The notes below the pieces were generated by a model, which saw only the letters and a program-made list of their open reading frames with translations, ran no database searches and was not told the origin of the DNA. Of a DNA stretch of 39,674 nucleotides, positions 1,519-4,471 are shown in pieces. The stretch comes from Chloroflexota bacterium (lineage in GTDB: Bacteria; Chloroflexota; Anaerolineae; UBA1429), in contig JAIOAW010000003.1 in the NCBI GenBank assembly GCA_019873625.1, positions 1-39,674 of the forward strand. Direction: 5' to 3'. The position numbers were made by a program, and so were the translations under genes. How positions within the stretch are numbered: position 1 is the stretch's first letter; every line of letters starts with the position of its first letter.

Positions 1519-1938
1519 TTAGACAAACAGCGTAATGGCCGATTCGCGGGCGTCTTTGATATACGAACCCACAGCGCCGTACTCGTCAATCAGGTCCTCC
1601 CGCAGATCCTCCCGTTTGATGCCCATAATCTCCATAGTCATCTCGCAGGCCAAAATCTTGCCCCCCAGGGCCTTGAAATCGCCGATAAGGCGCTCCAGCG
1701 AGGCCACCCGCGCCTTTTCCATACGGCGGCGCACCATCCACTTGCCCAGGCCCAAGAGGTGCATCTTGGAAAGAGGCCCCTTTTCTAGGCCGCCCTTCTT
1801 GAGGCGCTCCAGCCCCCAGAAGGTGAAATAGAGGGAGGCCTCCATACCCATAGCGAGGGCGCCGTTGGCGATGATGAGGGCACTGTAGAGTTTATCCATA
1901 TCTCCGCTCTGCACGACGATGGTCGCCTTTTCAGCCAT
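1519..1938 (-). CDS. DsrE/DsrF-like sulfur carrier family protein (DsrE2 type)
   Basis: A 139-residue protein of the DsrE/F/H-like group, small proteins that carry persulfide sulfur between sulfurtransferases or act as membrane-linked partners of them. The N-terminus (KATIVVQSGDMDK) forms the first strand, and the conserved cysteine Cys98 sits in KILACEMT, where family members hold the reactive thiol. The start has AAGGAGG four to five bases upstream. It follows tusA by 9 bp, a pairing often seen in sulfur relay systems. It is likely to accept or donate sulfur with TusA. Whether the flow is oxidative or towards Fe-S and thio-cofactor synthesis cannot be told here. Confidence 0.88.
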   Translation of the reverse strand: MAEKATIVVQSGDMDKLYSALIIANGALAMGMEASLYFTFWGLERLKKGGLEKGPLSKMHLLGLGKWMVRRRMEKARVASLERLIGDFKALGGKILACEMTMEIMGIKREDLREDLIDEYGAVGSYIKDARESAITLFV

Positions 1939-1947
1939 AGCGCCTCC

Positions 1948-2169
1948 TTAGCGGCGGATGCGGATAACCCAGTCGGTATCGGTGCCCTCGACGGCCAAGA
2001 GTTCGAGTTGGAGGGCCTCCACCGCCATGGGAATCTCTTTTTTCGAGGCGGGGTGCGTCCCGATGATCTCGACGATATCACCTGGCGCGGCGTGCCGCAG
2101 GGCCTTACGCATCTCCACCAAGGGGACGGGGCACGTCTCGCCGCGCACATCCACTTTGATTTCGACCAT
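1948..2169 (-). CDS. tusA: TusA/SirA family sulfurtransferase
   Basis: A 73-residue protein of the TusA family with the signature RGETCPVP; Cys13 of the CPxP motif is the persulfide-carrying residue. TusA normally takes sulfur from a cysteine desulfurase and passes it on for tRNA thiolation, molybdenum cofactor or Dsr/Hdr-type sulfur metabolism. It is flanked by the IscU-like scaffold gene (18 bp upstream) and the DsrE-like gene (9 bp downstream), with strong AGGAGG sites, so it is translated as part of one operon. Because the adjacent IscS-like protein appears unable to bind PLP normally, the sulfur source for this TusA is an open question. Confidence 0.92.
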   Translation of the reverse strand: MVEIKVDVRGETCPVPLVEMRKALRHAAPGDIVEIIGTHPASKKEIPMAVEALQLELLAVEGTDTDWVIRIRR

Positions 2170-2187: not shown

Positions 2188-2823
2188 TCAGCCGGTGAAT
2201 TCGACCTCGACGGATTCGACATCCCAAAGCGGCTCGATCTTTTCGCGGATCTCCTCGCGGATGTTGCTGGCAAATTGGTGATCGGGCGGCAGGTCAATGA
2301 CGATGCGCACCTGCCCGTTTTCCAGGCGAATCTCCCGGACGAGTTTCGTGCGCACGAGGTCCAGCCCTACCATAGGGTTCATCACGTGCTTCAAGCGGCG
2401 CCGAATCTCCTCTTCTGTGGTGGGCACGCGCTCTTTGATGAGGCCGTGCTTTTCTTCGTAATTTTGGATGGCGGCGCGCAGGCCATCCACCGCGAGGACG
2501 GAGCAGTGCGCCTTGATGGGGGGCAGGCCGCCCAGGGCCTCCGAGGCCTGCTGCCAGGTGATCTGCTTGGCCTCCTCCAACGTTTTGCCTTTGGCAAGTT
2601 CGGTGATGATCGAACCGGTGGCGATGTTCGAGGCGCACCCGTAAGATTCGAACTTGACATCCTCAATGCGGTGGGTGGCCTCATCTACCTTGAGGTACAC
2701 GGCCACCATATCGCCGCAGGCCGGGCTGCCCTCCACAGCTTTGGCATCCGCATCCTCGATGCGGCCGACGTTGCGCGGGTTGCGGAAATGTTCCATCACG
2801 ATATCGCTATAAGGTAACGGCAT
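2188..2823 (-). CDS. IscU-like Fe-S scaffold fused to a MIP18/DUF59-like domain
   Basis: A 211-residue two-domain protein. Residues 1 to about 125 are an IscU/NifU-N scaffold with the three cluster cysteines in SPACGD (Cys36, with Asp38), YGCASN (Cys63) and KAHCS (Cys107), preceded by LPPIK, which matches the LPPVK chaperone-contact motif of IscU. Residues about 137-211 look like a MIP18/SufT-type DUF59 domain but lack the family's usual cysteine. IscU proteins end near residue 130, and NifU carries a CxxC domain instead, so this C-terminus is unusual. It starts 2 bp after the IscS-like stop; AAGGAGG lies inside that gene's end, implying tight co-expression. It probably assembles and hands on Fe-S clusters with the IscS-like partner. 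Confidence 0.88.
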   Translation of the reverse strand: MPLPYSDIVMEHFRNPRNVGRIEDADAKAVEGSPACGDMVAVYLKVDEATHRIEDVKFESYGCASNIATGSIITELAKGKTLEEAKQITWQQASEALGGLPPIKAHCSVLAVDGLRAAIQNYEEKHGLIKERVPTTEEEIRRRLKHVMNPMVGLDLVRTKLVREIRLENGQVRIVIDLPPDHQFASNIREEIREKIEPLWDVESVEVEFTG

Positions 2824-2825
2824 AA

Positions 2826-3992
2826 TTATTCCTCCTTGCCCAGTGGGCTGATCTTTCTGAGAGTCTCGACCACCTCGCGGAGGGCGGTGGCGATGGCCTC
2901 TACGTCTTCCGGTTCGTTGTAACGCCCAAAGGTGATACGCACGGAACCATGGGCGCGCTCGTGGTTGCCGCCGATGCCCAAGATGACGTGGCTCGCCTCA
3001 AGGGAACGGCTGAAGCACGCTGAGCCAGTGCTCACGGCAAAGCCGCGCATATCCAAATGCAAGAGCACCGATTCCCCTTCGACAAAGCGGAAGGAGACGT
3101 TCACATTATGCGGCAGGCGATGCACCGGGTGGCCGTTCAGGCGGGCGTGGGGAATCTCCAGCAGGCGGGCGATGGCCTCGTCGCGCCAGGTGCGCAGGCG
3201 GGCCGTCTCTTCTTCGGTGATGAGTTCGACGGCCTTGGCGAACCCCACCGCGCCGGGGATATTCTCGACGCCGCCGCGCAGGTTGAACTCCTGAAAGCCC
3301 CCGTCCATCCATTTGGCGATGGGCGTGCCCTCGCGCACGTATAACCCGCCGATGCCCCTGGGGCCGTGGATGAGATGCGCCGTCACGGTGATGAGGTCCA
3401 CGGGCACTTGCTGGGTGTTGATGGGCACGCGCCCAAAGGCGTGCGTGGCATCCGTATGGAAGAGGGTGCCCTTTTCACGGCAGATGGCCCCTATGGCCGC
3501 TACATCCTGCAAGGTGCCGATCTCTTGGTTTGCCGCTTGGATGGAGACGAGGATCGTATCGGGCCGGATGATCTCGCGGAGGTGATCCAGGTCCACGCGG
3601 CCCGTCTCATCCACGCGCACGTAACTCACCTCAAAACCTTGGCGTTCCAAGGCACGGGCGCTGTACAGGACGGGGAAATCCTCGATGGGAGAGGTGACGA
3701 TGTGTTTGCCCTTCTTGGTGCCCAGGGCCAAGGCCACCCCTTTGAGGGCCATATTGCTCGATTCGGCATCCCCCGAGGTAAAGACGAACTCCTCTGGCTT
3801 GGCGCCCAAGGTGGCCGCCAGGCGAGCGCGGGCCTCCTCCAGGGCGTCTTTGGCCTCAATCCCCGGCGAATAGCCAAATTGCGAGGTGGCCACGGCGTAC
3901 GTCTCAAAGAAATAGGGTTTCATCGCCTCCAGCACGCGCTCATCCAGCCGCGTGGCTGCGGCATTATCGAGGTATATAAATCGCTTCGGCAC
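2826..3992 (-). CDS. IscS/NifS-like aminotransferase-fold protein lacking the PLP lysine
   Basis: A 388-residue homologue of class V cysteine desulfurases, full length and collinear. The Schiff-base lysine of the usual SxHK motif is replaced: ITVTAHLIHGPRG has Leu207 (codon CTC, 3372-3374). Other PLP contacts differ too: TSGDAES in place of TSGATES, Asp105 where IscS has the ring-stacking His, and His184 where IscS has Gln in the DATQ motif. Retained are Asn155, Asp181, His206 and the mobile-loop Cys326 in GSACFSRS. It should not catalyse PLP-dependent desulfuration. A lysine-less IscS has been described in Archaeoglobus fulgidus, where it is thought to lend a cysteine ligand to IscU. The start is GTG with AGGAGG upstream, 1 bp after the ferredoxin stop. 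Confidence 0.9.
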   Translation of the reverse strand: MPKRFIYLDNAAATRLDERVLEAMKPYFFETYAVATSQFGYSPGIEAKDALEEARARLAATLGAKPEEFVFTSGDAESSNMALKGVALALGTKKGKHIVTSPIEDFPVLYSARALERQGFEVSYVRVDETGRVDLDHLREIIRPDTILVSIQAANQEIGTLQDVAAIGAICREKGTLFHTDATHAFGRVPINTQQVPVDLITVTAHLIHGPRGIGGLYVREGTPIAKWMDGGFQEFNLRGGVENIPGAVGFAKAVELITEEETARLRTWRDEAIARLLEIPHARLNGHPVHRLPHNVNVSFRFVEGESVLLHLDMRGFAVSTGSACFSRSLEASHVILGIGGNHERAHGSVRITFGRYNEPEDVEAIATALREVVETLRKISPLGKEE

Positions 3993-3993
3993 G

Positions 3994-4233
3994 TTATCCT
4001 CCTGAAGGGGGCGTCTCGCGCGGCGCGCCCCAGGTGATGGTGAAAGAGCAGGAGATAGCCCCTTCGGGGCATACCTCTTCGCACACGCAGCATCCCCCGC
4101 AACGCTCGGGGTGGGCGAGGTACACCGCGCACTCCCCGGCGCTCAGCGCGCCCGGTTCACAGGCCTCCAAGCAGGCTCCGCAGAGTATGCACCGGGCTTC
4201 GATAATTTGGGGCGTTGGCGTCTCGCCATCCAT
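3994..4233 (-). CDS. 2[4Fe-4S] ferredoxin
   Basis: A 79-residue bacterial-type ferredoxin with two cluster motifs: CILCGACLEAC (Cys15, 18, 21, 25, followed by EP rather than P) and CGGCCVCEEVCPE, which has one extra cysteine. The C-terminal 20 residues are a short polar and aromatic tail without cysteines. It is the first gene of the sulfur/Fe-S operon and ends 1 bp before the GTG of the IscS-like gene. It could supply electrons for persulfide reduction or cluster assembly, or serve the downstream superoxide reductase; both are inferences. The ATG at 4233 lacks a clear Shine-Dalgarno sequence, which is unusual for this window. Confidence 0.9.
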   Translation of the reverse strand: MDGETPTPQIIEARCILCGACLEACEPGALSAGECAVYLAHPERCGGCCVCEEVCPEGAISCSFTITWGAPRETPPSGG

Positions 4234-4318: not shown

Positions 4319-4356
4319 AAAAACCAACCTCCCGCGCGTTCAAAACGCGCGGGAGG
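4319..4356 (-). terminator. hairpin terminator downstream of the tRNA, repeat-family copy
   Basis: A perfect 11-bp stem (CCTCCCGCGCG / CGCGCGGGAGG) with a 7-nt loop. On the minus strand it is followed by TTGGTTTTT, giving a plausible intrinsic terminator about 40 nt past the tRNA 3' end. It belongs to the CTCCCGC hairpin family of this window but has GCGCG in place of GCAGG. Confidence 0.6.
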
Positions 4357-4398: not shown

Positions 4399-4471
4399 TG
4401 GGCCCACCAGGATTCGAACCCGGGACCAACCGGTTATGAGCCGGTCGCTCTCACCGCTGAGCTATGGGCCC
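4399..4471 (-). tRNA. tRNA with CAT anticodon (elongator Met or Ile2)
   Basis: A 73-nt cloverleaf is readable on the minus strand. The acceptor stem GGGCCCA pairs with TGGGCCC, followed by discriminator A. The D-arm is GCTC...GAGC, the anticodon stem ACCGG/CCGGT encloses loop CTCATAA, and the T-arm contains GTTCGAAT. CCA is not encoded. It is not the initiator: there is no run of three G-C pairs in the anticodon stem and the first acceptor pair is normal. Met and lysidine-modified Ile2 tRNAs share this anticodon and cannot be separated by eye. Confidence 0.93.

Follow-up and report, generated by a model that had tools for sequence, protein, structure and literature searches.

Lysine-less IscS-type proteins encoded with TusA, DsrE and an IscU scaffold: a candidate PLP-independent Fe-S cluster assembly module in Chloroflexota and methanogens

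In E. coli, sulfur flows from the cysteine desulfurase IscS to the carrier TusA, and sulfur oxidisers have TusA/DsrE2 sulfur-carrier cassettes in which the two persulfide carriers are adjacent. How Fe-S clusters are supplied with sulfur without cysteine in anaerobes is an open question. IscS proteins without the Schiff-base lysine are already known from A. fulgidus and M. acetivorans. A. fulgidus IscS is described as having no desulfurase activity, with its Cys ligating the [2Fe-2S] cluster on IscU (PMC7585200). In 2020, the lysine was reported absent from M. acetivorans IscS1 (MA0808), which carries the motif STGSACFS; its IscU1 (MA0807) has a mass of 24.2 kDa, and iscSU1 is clustered with four more genes whose function was given as unknown (PMC7585200). 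Deletion of SufBC in M. acetivorans was without effect, and Methanococcus maripaludis, in which no desulfurase is known, takes its sulfur from sulfide (PMC7585200, PMC10500019). Moreover, in E. coli lacking iscS, Fe-S clusters can be assembled on IscU from sulfide (PMC13015791), and E. coli TusA and IscU dock at adjacent, overlapping sites on IscS, both reaching the catalytic Cys (PMC11302665).

Here, we analysed a window of 39,674 nt, contig JAIOAW010000003.1 of assembly GCA_019873625.1, from a member of the Chloroflexota (Anaerolineae; UBA1429). It carries an operon with intergenic distances of 1 to 18 bases and the following features:

3994..4233, minus strand: 2[4Fe-4S] ferredoxin, 1 bp upstream of the lysine-less IscS gene, found upstream in some Anaerolineae only
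2826..3992, minus strand: lysine-less IscS/NifS-fold protein of 388 aa, with Leu207 for the PLP lysine and Cys326 kept
3372..3374, minus strand: codon 207, CTC (Leu), at the position of the Schiff-base lysine, read from the window DNA and the alignment
3015..3017, minus strand: codon 326, TGC (Cys), the mobile-loop cysteine in GSACFSRS, Cys in 73/73 lysine-less representatives
2188..2823, minus strand: IscU scaffold fused to a MIP18/DUF59 domain, 211 aa, with three ligand Cys and an LPPIK motif (Pfam NifU_N, 1.8e-43; FeS_assembly_P, 2.5e-16)
1948..2169, minus strand: TusA-like sulfur carrier, 73 aa, with a CPVP cysteine motif (Pfam TusA, 1.1e-19)
1519..1938, minus strand: DsrE2-like sulfur carrier, 139 aa, with a conserved Cys (ILACEMTMEIMGI) (Pfam DrsE_2, 1.2e-34)

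The frame of the lysine-less IscS runs on the minus strand from a GTG start at 3992 to a stop at 2826. Its class V aminotransferase domain is complete (Pfam PF00266, E 2.5e-68), and the NCBIfam NifS/IscS equivalog models matched it over the full length yet under their cut-offs (426/531 and 356/643 bits). In E. coli IscS, H104 stacks on the PLP ring, Q183 binds O3', T243 binds the phosphate, D180 binds the ring nitrogen and R354 is the substrate-carboxylate Arg. Alignment with E. coli IscS placed Leu207 at K206, and four of the six other PLP contacts (H104, Q183, N155, T243, D180 and H205) were replaced, namely H104 by D105, Q183 by H184, N155 by Q156 and T243 by V242; Y208 was also replaced, by H209. 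D180 (D181), H205 (H206), R354 (R352) and C328 (C326) were retained. The preliminary description, made from the sequence alone, had thus been right about the loss of the Schiff-base lysine and about Asp for the ring-stacking His and His for Gln. It had also pointed to TSGDAES for TSGATES; the change of T76 to A76 is present in this protein, but it does not characterise the clade, since Thr is found in 39/44 representatives. An AlphaFold2 model (pLDDT 91.4) showed the IscS fold with a disordered Cys loop at 325-330, and the closest solved structures were NFS1, E. coli IscS (Z 54) and A. fulgidus IscS (Z ~52), in agreement with the earlier claim that the rest of the fold is intact.

We then surveyed the relatives of this protein. 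In a class sample of 298 genomes of the window's class, 39, its own included, encode it at 59-82% identity, and 38/38 relatives are without the lysine. The lysine was likewise missing in 80/80 of the best 80 matches among named GTDB contigs (64-81% identity), a set that has some contigs in common with the class sample. Therefore, a sequencing error at codon 207 was ruled out. Homologues with the same operon and a Lys, which had been named as a possible refutation, did not occur among the best 80 GTDB matches. The commonest residue at the lysine position is Thr, otherwise Leu, Val, Met or Arg, and we refer to these proteins as the Thr/Leu clade. Its signature comprises D105, H184, H209 and GSACFSR together with a four-gene module, and Cys326 is invariant across it. 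By record title, the best 80 matches comprised 48 Chloroflexota, at least 16 archaea (mostly methanogens), 8 Bacillota and small numbers of Thermodesulfobacteriota, Deltaproteobacteria and Atribacterota; Methanolobus and Methanohalophilus encode close relatives. The setting "in a bacterium" given in the preliminary description is therefore true of the window, but the clade is wide and spans bacteria and methanogens. In even samples the family was rare (5/299 in Bacillota, 1/198 in Desulfobacterota). For close pairs (dS < 0.6), dN/dS was 0.02-0.18, and selection on the protein is purifying.

The neighbours described earlier as IscU-like, TusA and DsrE-like were confirmed by Pfam, and TusA, DsrE2, the lysine-less IscS and the IscU::MIP18 fusion were grouped in nearly all Thr/Leu-clade loci, in the order IscS-IscU-TusA-DsrE2 in Anaerolineae, window included, and TusA-DsrE2-IscS-IscU in most others. 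Beyond these four, no fifth gene recurred at the loci, the ferredoxin being confined to Anaerolineae. The carrier Cys was present in 119/120 module TusA proteins and in the DsrE2 of 73/73 Thr/Leu-clade members; the scaffold has the NifU_N domain, and its three ligand cysteines are nearly invariant. Canonical IscS-IscU (E. coli ISC) and NifS-NifU share with the module the fold, the mobile-loop Cys, the IscU cysteines, the LPP[IV]K motif and, in some loci, a ferredoxin nearby. Unlike them, the module has no Schiff-base lysine, has lost other PLP contacts, falls under the NifS/IscS equivalog cut-offs, has MIP18 fused to IscU and TusA plus DsrE2 in the operon, and is without HscA/HscB/IscA. In contrast to the TusA/DsrE2 cassettes of sulfur oxidisers, the carriers here are tied to the lysine-less IscS and IscU, with no other recurring gene.

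Lysine-less IscS proteins formed three clades, each with SH-aLRT 98-100. The A. fulgidus protein, which in genome G798 matched the PDB sequence at 100%, lies in an archaeal clade in which Asp (once Glu, at locus L228) takes the place of Lys and whose members adjoin IscU and TusA/DsrE. Asp180 is changed to Asn in one A. fulgidus-type branch (archaeal L227, L234, L235, L239 and L228). A third clade, in Chloroflexota, has Gln (once Ala) for Lys and the order IscS-IscU-zinc ribbon-DsrE2-TusA, so that gene order varies between the clades; its loci L148, L156, L158, L159, L163 and L266-L268 show AANQFYGPK, an unfused IscU and a small zinc-ribbon protein. Common to the three clades are the loss of Lys206 and Gln183 and the retention of the Cys (73/73 representatives), and a basic residue three positions past the Cys was found in 71/73 lysine-less representatives and less commonly in lysine-bearing IscS. 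The Thr/Leu clade retains Arg354 and His205 and loses His104 and Thr243, whereas the Asp and Gln clades show the reverse; with Q183 changed to H/A/A and N155 to Q/N,D,G/G across the three clades, the contacts were lost in differing combinations. The best tree requires three state changes and separates the Thr/Leu clade from that of A. fulgidus. However, neither a single joint lysine-less clade (AU p 0.24) nor a joint grouping of these two (AU p 0.32) was rejected, and we discarded the reading that independent lysine losses are proven. By the former value, the lysine may have been lost once or three times, and the evidence from the three clades may be partly interdependent.

The preliminary description had likened the protein to that of A. 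fulgidus. A. fulgidus IscS2 (PDB 4eb5, 4eb7, 4hvk; D199) indeed shares with it the absence of the lysine, the Cys, the adjoining IscU and the fold; DsrE also adjoins, and the second A. fulgidus copy has TusA as well, as does the module. But it is ~44% identical and falls into another clade in the best tree, so that the likeness is probably not orthology. Lys is replaced by Asp rather than Thr/Leu, His104 and Thr243 are kept, Arg354 is lost, Gln183 is Ala, IscU is unfused and the carrier is DsrE (best Pfam PF02635) instead of DsrE2. M. acetivorans IscS1 and IscU1, placed by their published description, very probably belong to the Thr/Leu clade, because IscS1 shares STGSACFS with the clade signature and its partner of 24.2 kDa has the size of the IscU::MIP18 fusion. 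The paper on these proteins draws no link from the four neighbouring genes to TusA/DsrE (PMC7585200).

To compare the neighbourhoods, 198 IscS-type ORFs were scored for a same-strand TusA and/or DsrE gene no more than 5 kb away; the loci had been selected via IscS or IscU, and neither carrier gene was used in the selection. A carrier gene was nearby in 77/86 Thr/Leu, 38/39 Asp and 9/11 Gln/Ala loci, 124 of the 136 lysine-less proteins in total, versus only 2/62 lysine-bearing IscS, both of which (L092 and L268) share a contig with a lysine-less module. Several of the exceptions sit at contig ends. After dereplication the counts were 67/72 for lysine-less versus 2/31 for lysine-bearing IscS (Fisher p 3e-18, with shared ancestry ignored). 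Whether lysine loss also tracks with the IscU-MIP18 fusion, a question raised earlier, was answered for the Thr/Leu clade, where 81/81 complete IscU proteins carry the fusion versus 0/97 of the IscU beside other IscS. As a general rule for lysine loss the fusion was rejected, since IscU is unfused in the Asp (0/39) and Gln (0/11) clades. These results indicate that the TusA/DsrE pair, and not the MIP18 fusion, is the general correlate of lysine loss.

We further studied which other desulfurases the same cells encode. A SufS profile search identified thirteen genomes without a lysine-bearing IscS/SufS: A. fulgidus, ten further Asp-clade archaea, and a Methanothrix and a Methanofastidiosum MAG, both of which may be incomplete. 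In all of these the best match was the lysine-less protein itself, with other matches < 50 bits. The A. fulgidus genome, one contig of 2.18 Mb, has two lysine-less copies. Two other archaea (G778 and G872) each had a further match > 150 bits in a PF00266 search. The window's genome and most others encode a lysine-bearing IscS, usually elsewhere in the genome, so the module is an additional system there, and it could draw sulfur from that enzyme in cells having both.

Given the published work on A. fulgidus and E. coli and the TusA/DsrE association, the most economical reading is that these carriers, or sulfide, replace cysteine and that the lysine-less IscS serves as a platform offering Cys326 to IscU. 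We consider it rather probable that the locus is a PLP-independent Fe-S assembly module in which a TusA/DsrE persulfide (or sulfide) takes the place of cysteine and Cys326 relays the sulfur or ligates the cluster. The first proposal, a PLP-independent cluster-assembly module, is supported by the absence of Lys in homologues with the operon, by the strict distribution of the fusion and by purifying selection. In the proposed mechanism, the protein would keep the IscS fold and the mobile-loop Cys but could form no PLP aldimine, and hence would not be a cysteine desulfurase. TusA and DsrE2 would carry sulfide- or sulfane-derived sulfur as persulfide to Cys326, or sulfide might be used directly; Cys326 would then swing to IscU, to hand over sulfur and/or to complete the ligation of the forming [2Fe-2S] cluster as its fourth ligand, a role seen in the crystal of A. 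fulgidus IscS-IscU. The fused MIP18 domain may aid cluster hand-over to client proteins, and the ferredoxin next to the IscS gene is a possible electron donor. Our data show the lost residues, the conserved Cys, the make-up of the module, the link to TusA/DsrE in three clades, purifying selection and the lack of another IscS/SufS in thirteen genomes, whereas we infer the absence of PLP, the binding of IscU and TusA in the manner known from E. coli, the direction of sulfur flow, the ligand role of Cys326 and the roles of MIP18 and ferredoxin. Apart from the lysine-bearing IscS of most genomes, two observations count against this reading: gene order varies between the clades, and D181, H206 and R352 of the former cofactor/substrate site are retained in the Thr/Leu clade, which may therefore still have a ligand pocket.

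A narrower explanation is that the protein only donates a ligand, as in A. fulgidus, with Cys326 as the fourth cluster ligand on IscU, free sulfide as the source, and TusA/DsrE serving another step or sulfane scavenging. It agrees with the picture of A. fulgidus IscS, also suggested for M. acetivorans IscS1, in PMC7585200, with the Cys conserved in three lysine-less clades and with organisms without any lysine-bearing IscS/SufS. We regard it as unlikely, as it does not account for the presence of TusA and DsrE, carrier cysteines included, in the operons of three lysine-less clades, nor for their absence next to lysine-bearing IscS. Less probable again, at a low level, is a regulatory or delivery pseudo-enzyme that acts as acceptor, competitor or heterodimer partner of lysine-bearing IscS and channels cysteine-derived sulfur to IscU::MIP18. 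The host and most other genomes do encode such an IscS, and both kinds lie on one contig in L092 and L268, but the lysine-bearing gene is usually elsewhere in the genome, and the thirteen genomes found by the profile search, A. fulgidus included, have none.

In the sugar dehydratase ColD, a His replaces the Schiff-base Lys, and the protein might similarly be a PLP- or PMP-enzyme with catalysis via H184, H209 or D105. These three ionisable residues are newly fixed and lie within or beside the former pocket, and the substrate-carboxylate Arg (R352, in 44/44 representatives) is retained along with D181 and H206. However, the ring-stacking His, the O3'-binding Gln and the phosphate-binding Thr are gone too, and in the other two lysine-less clades it is R354 that is lost, which makes this reading quite improbable. 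Finally, a pseudogene being lost would account for the missing catalytic residue, but we give decay hardly any weight: the frames are uninterrupted, the close pairs show the low dN/dS given above, the new residues are fixed across bacteria and archaea, and the module is conserved, all in line with the early view that decay was unlikely. Returning to the assembly module with carriers in place of cysteine, a bolder version appears doubtful but conceivable. It holds that this is a widespread extra Fe-S route without cysteine desulfurase or SufBC drive, in which TusA/DsrE2 would supply sulfane sulfur, a catalytically dead desulfurase fold would act as relay and cluster ligand on IscU::MIP18, and the PLP pocket of the Thr/Leu clade would have been rebuilt (D105, H184, H209 and the kept R352) for something else, perhaps a metal ion.

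No report linking TusA/DsrE to lysine-less IscS was found in the open-access literature, and as far as that literature shows, the clade with its signature, the four-gene IscU::MIP18 module and the linkage of lysine loss with TusA/DsrE in three clades are new. Since the cofactor lysine is lost and the gene belongs to a fixed set with sulfur carriers and a scaffold, our results suggest that anaerobic bacteria and methanogens with the module can build Fe-S clusters without cysteine. The association points to TusA/DsrE as possible sulfur donors for lysine-less IscS-IscU and is testable in tractable hosts (M. acetivorans with iscSU1, Acetobacterium). Moreover, the annotation "cysteine desulfurase" for lysine-less proteins exaggerates the extent of cysteine-based assembly in Chloroflexota, Archaeoglobi and methanogens.

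Some minor features surround the operon in the window. A small zinc-ribbon ORF follows DsrE2 (1281-1589); a zinc-ribbon gene is also part of the Gln-clade module. Further downstream (120-1143) lie genes for a PfpI-type deglycase and for a superoxide reductase with a desulfoferrodoxin iron domain, a pair that also occurs close to the module in L066, L075 and L081. A tRNA-Met (CAT) is located just upstream of the operon (4399-4471, minus strand). Elsewhere in the host genome (G000), a TusA domain lies within an 844-residue open frame (contig C1:262894-263100). Around the operon, an inverted-repeat-like element, TTTTGA(A/G)C..GCGGGAGG, is found in intergenic DNA three times on the minus strand (1190-1207, 1483-1500 and 4328-4345), where 0.01 would be expected by chance in the window.
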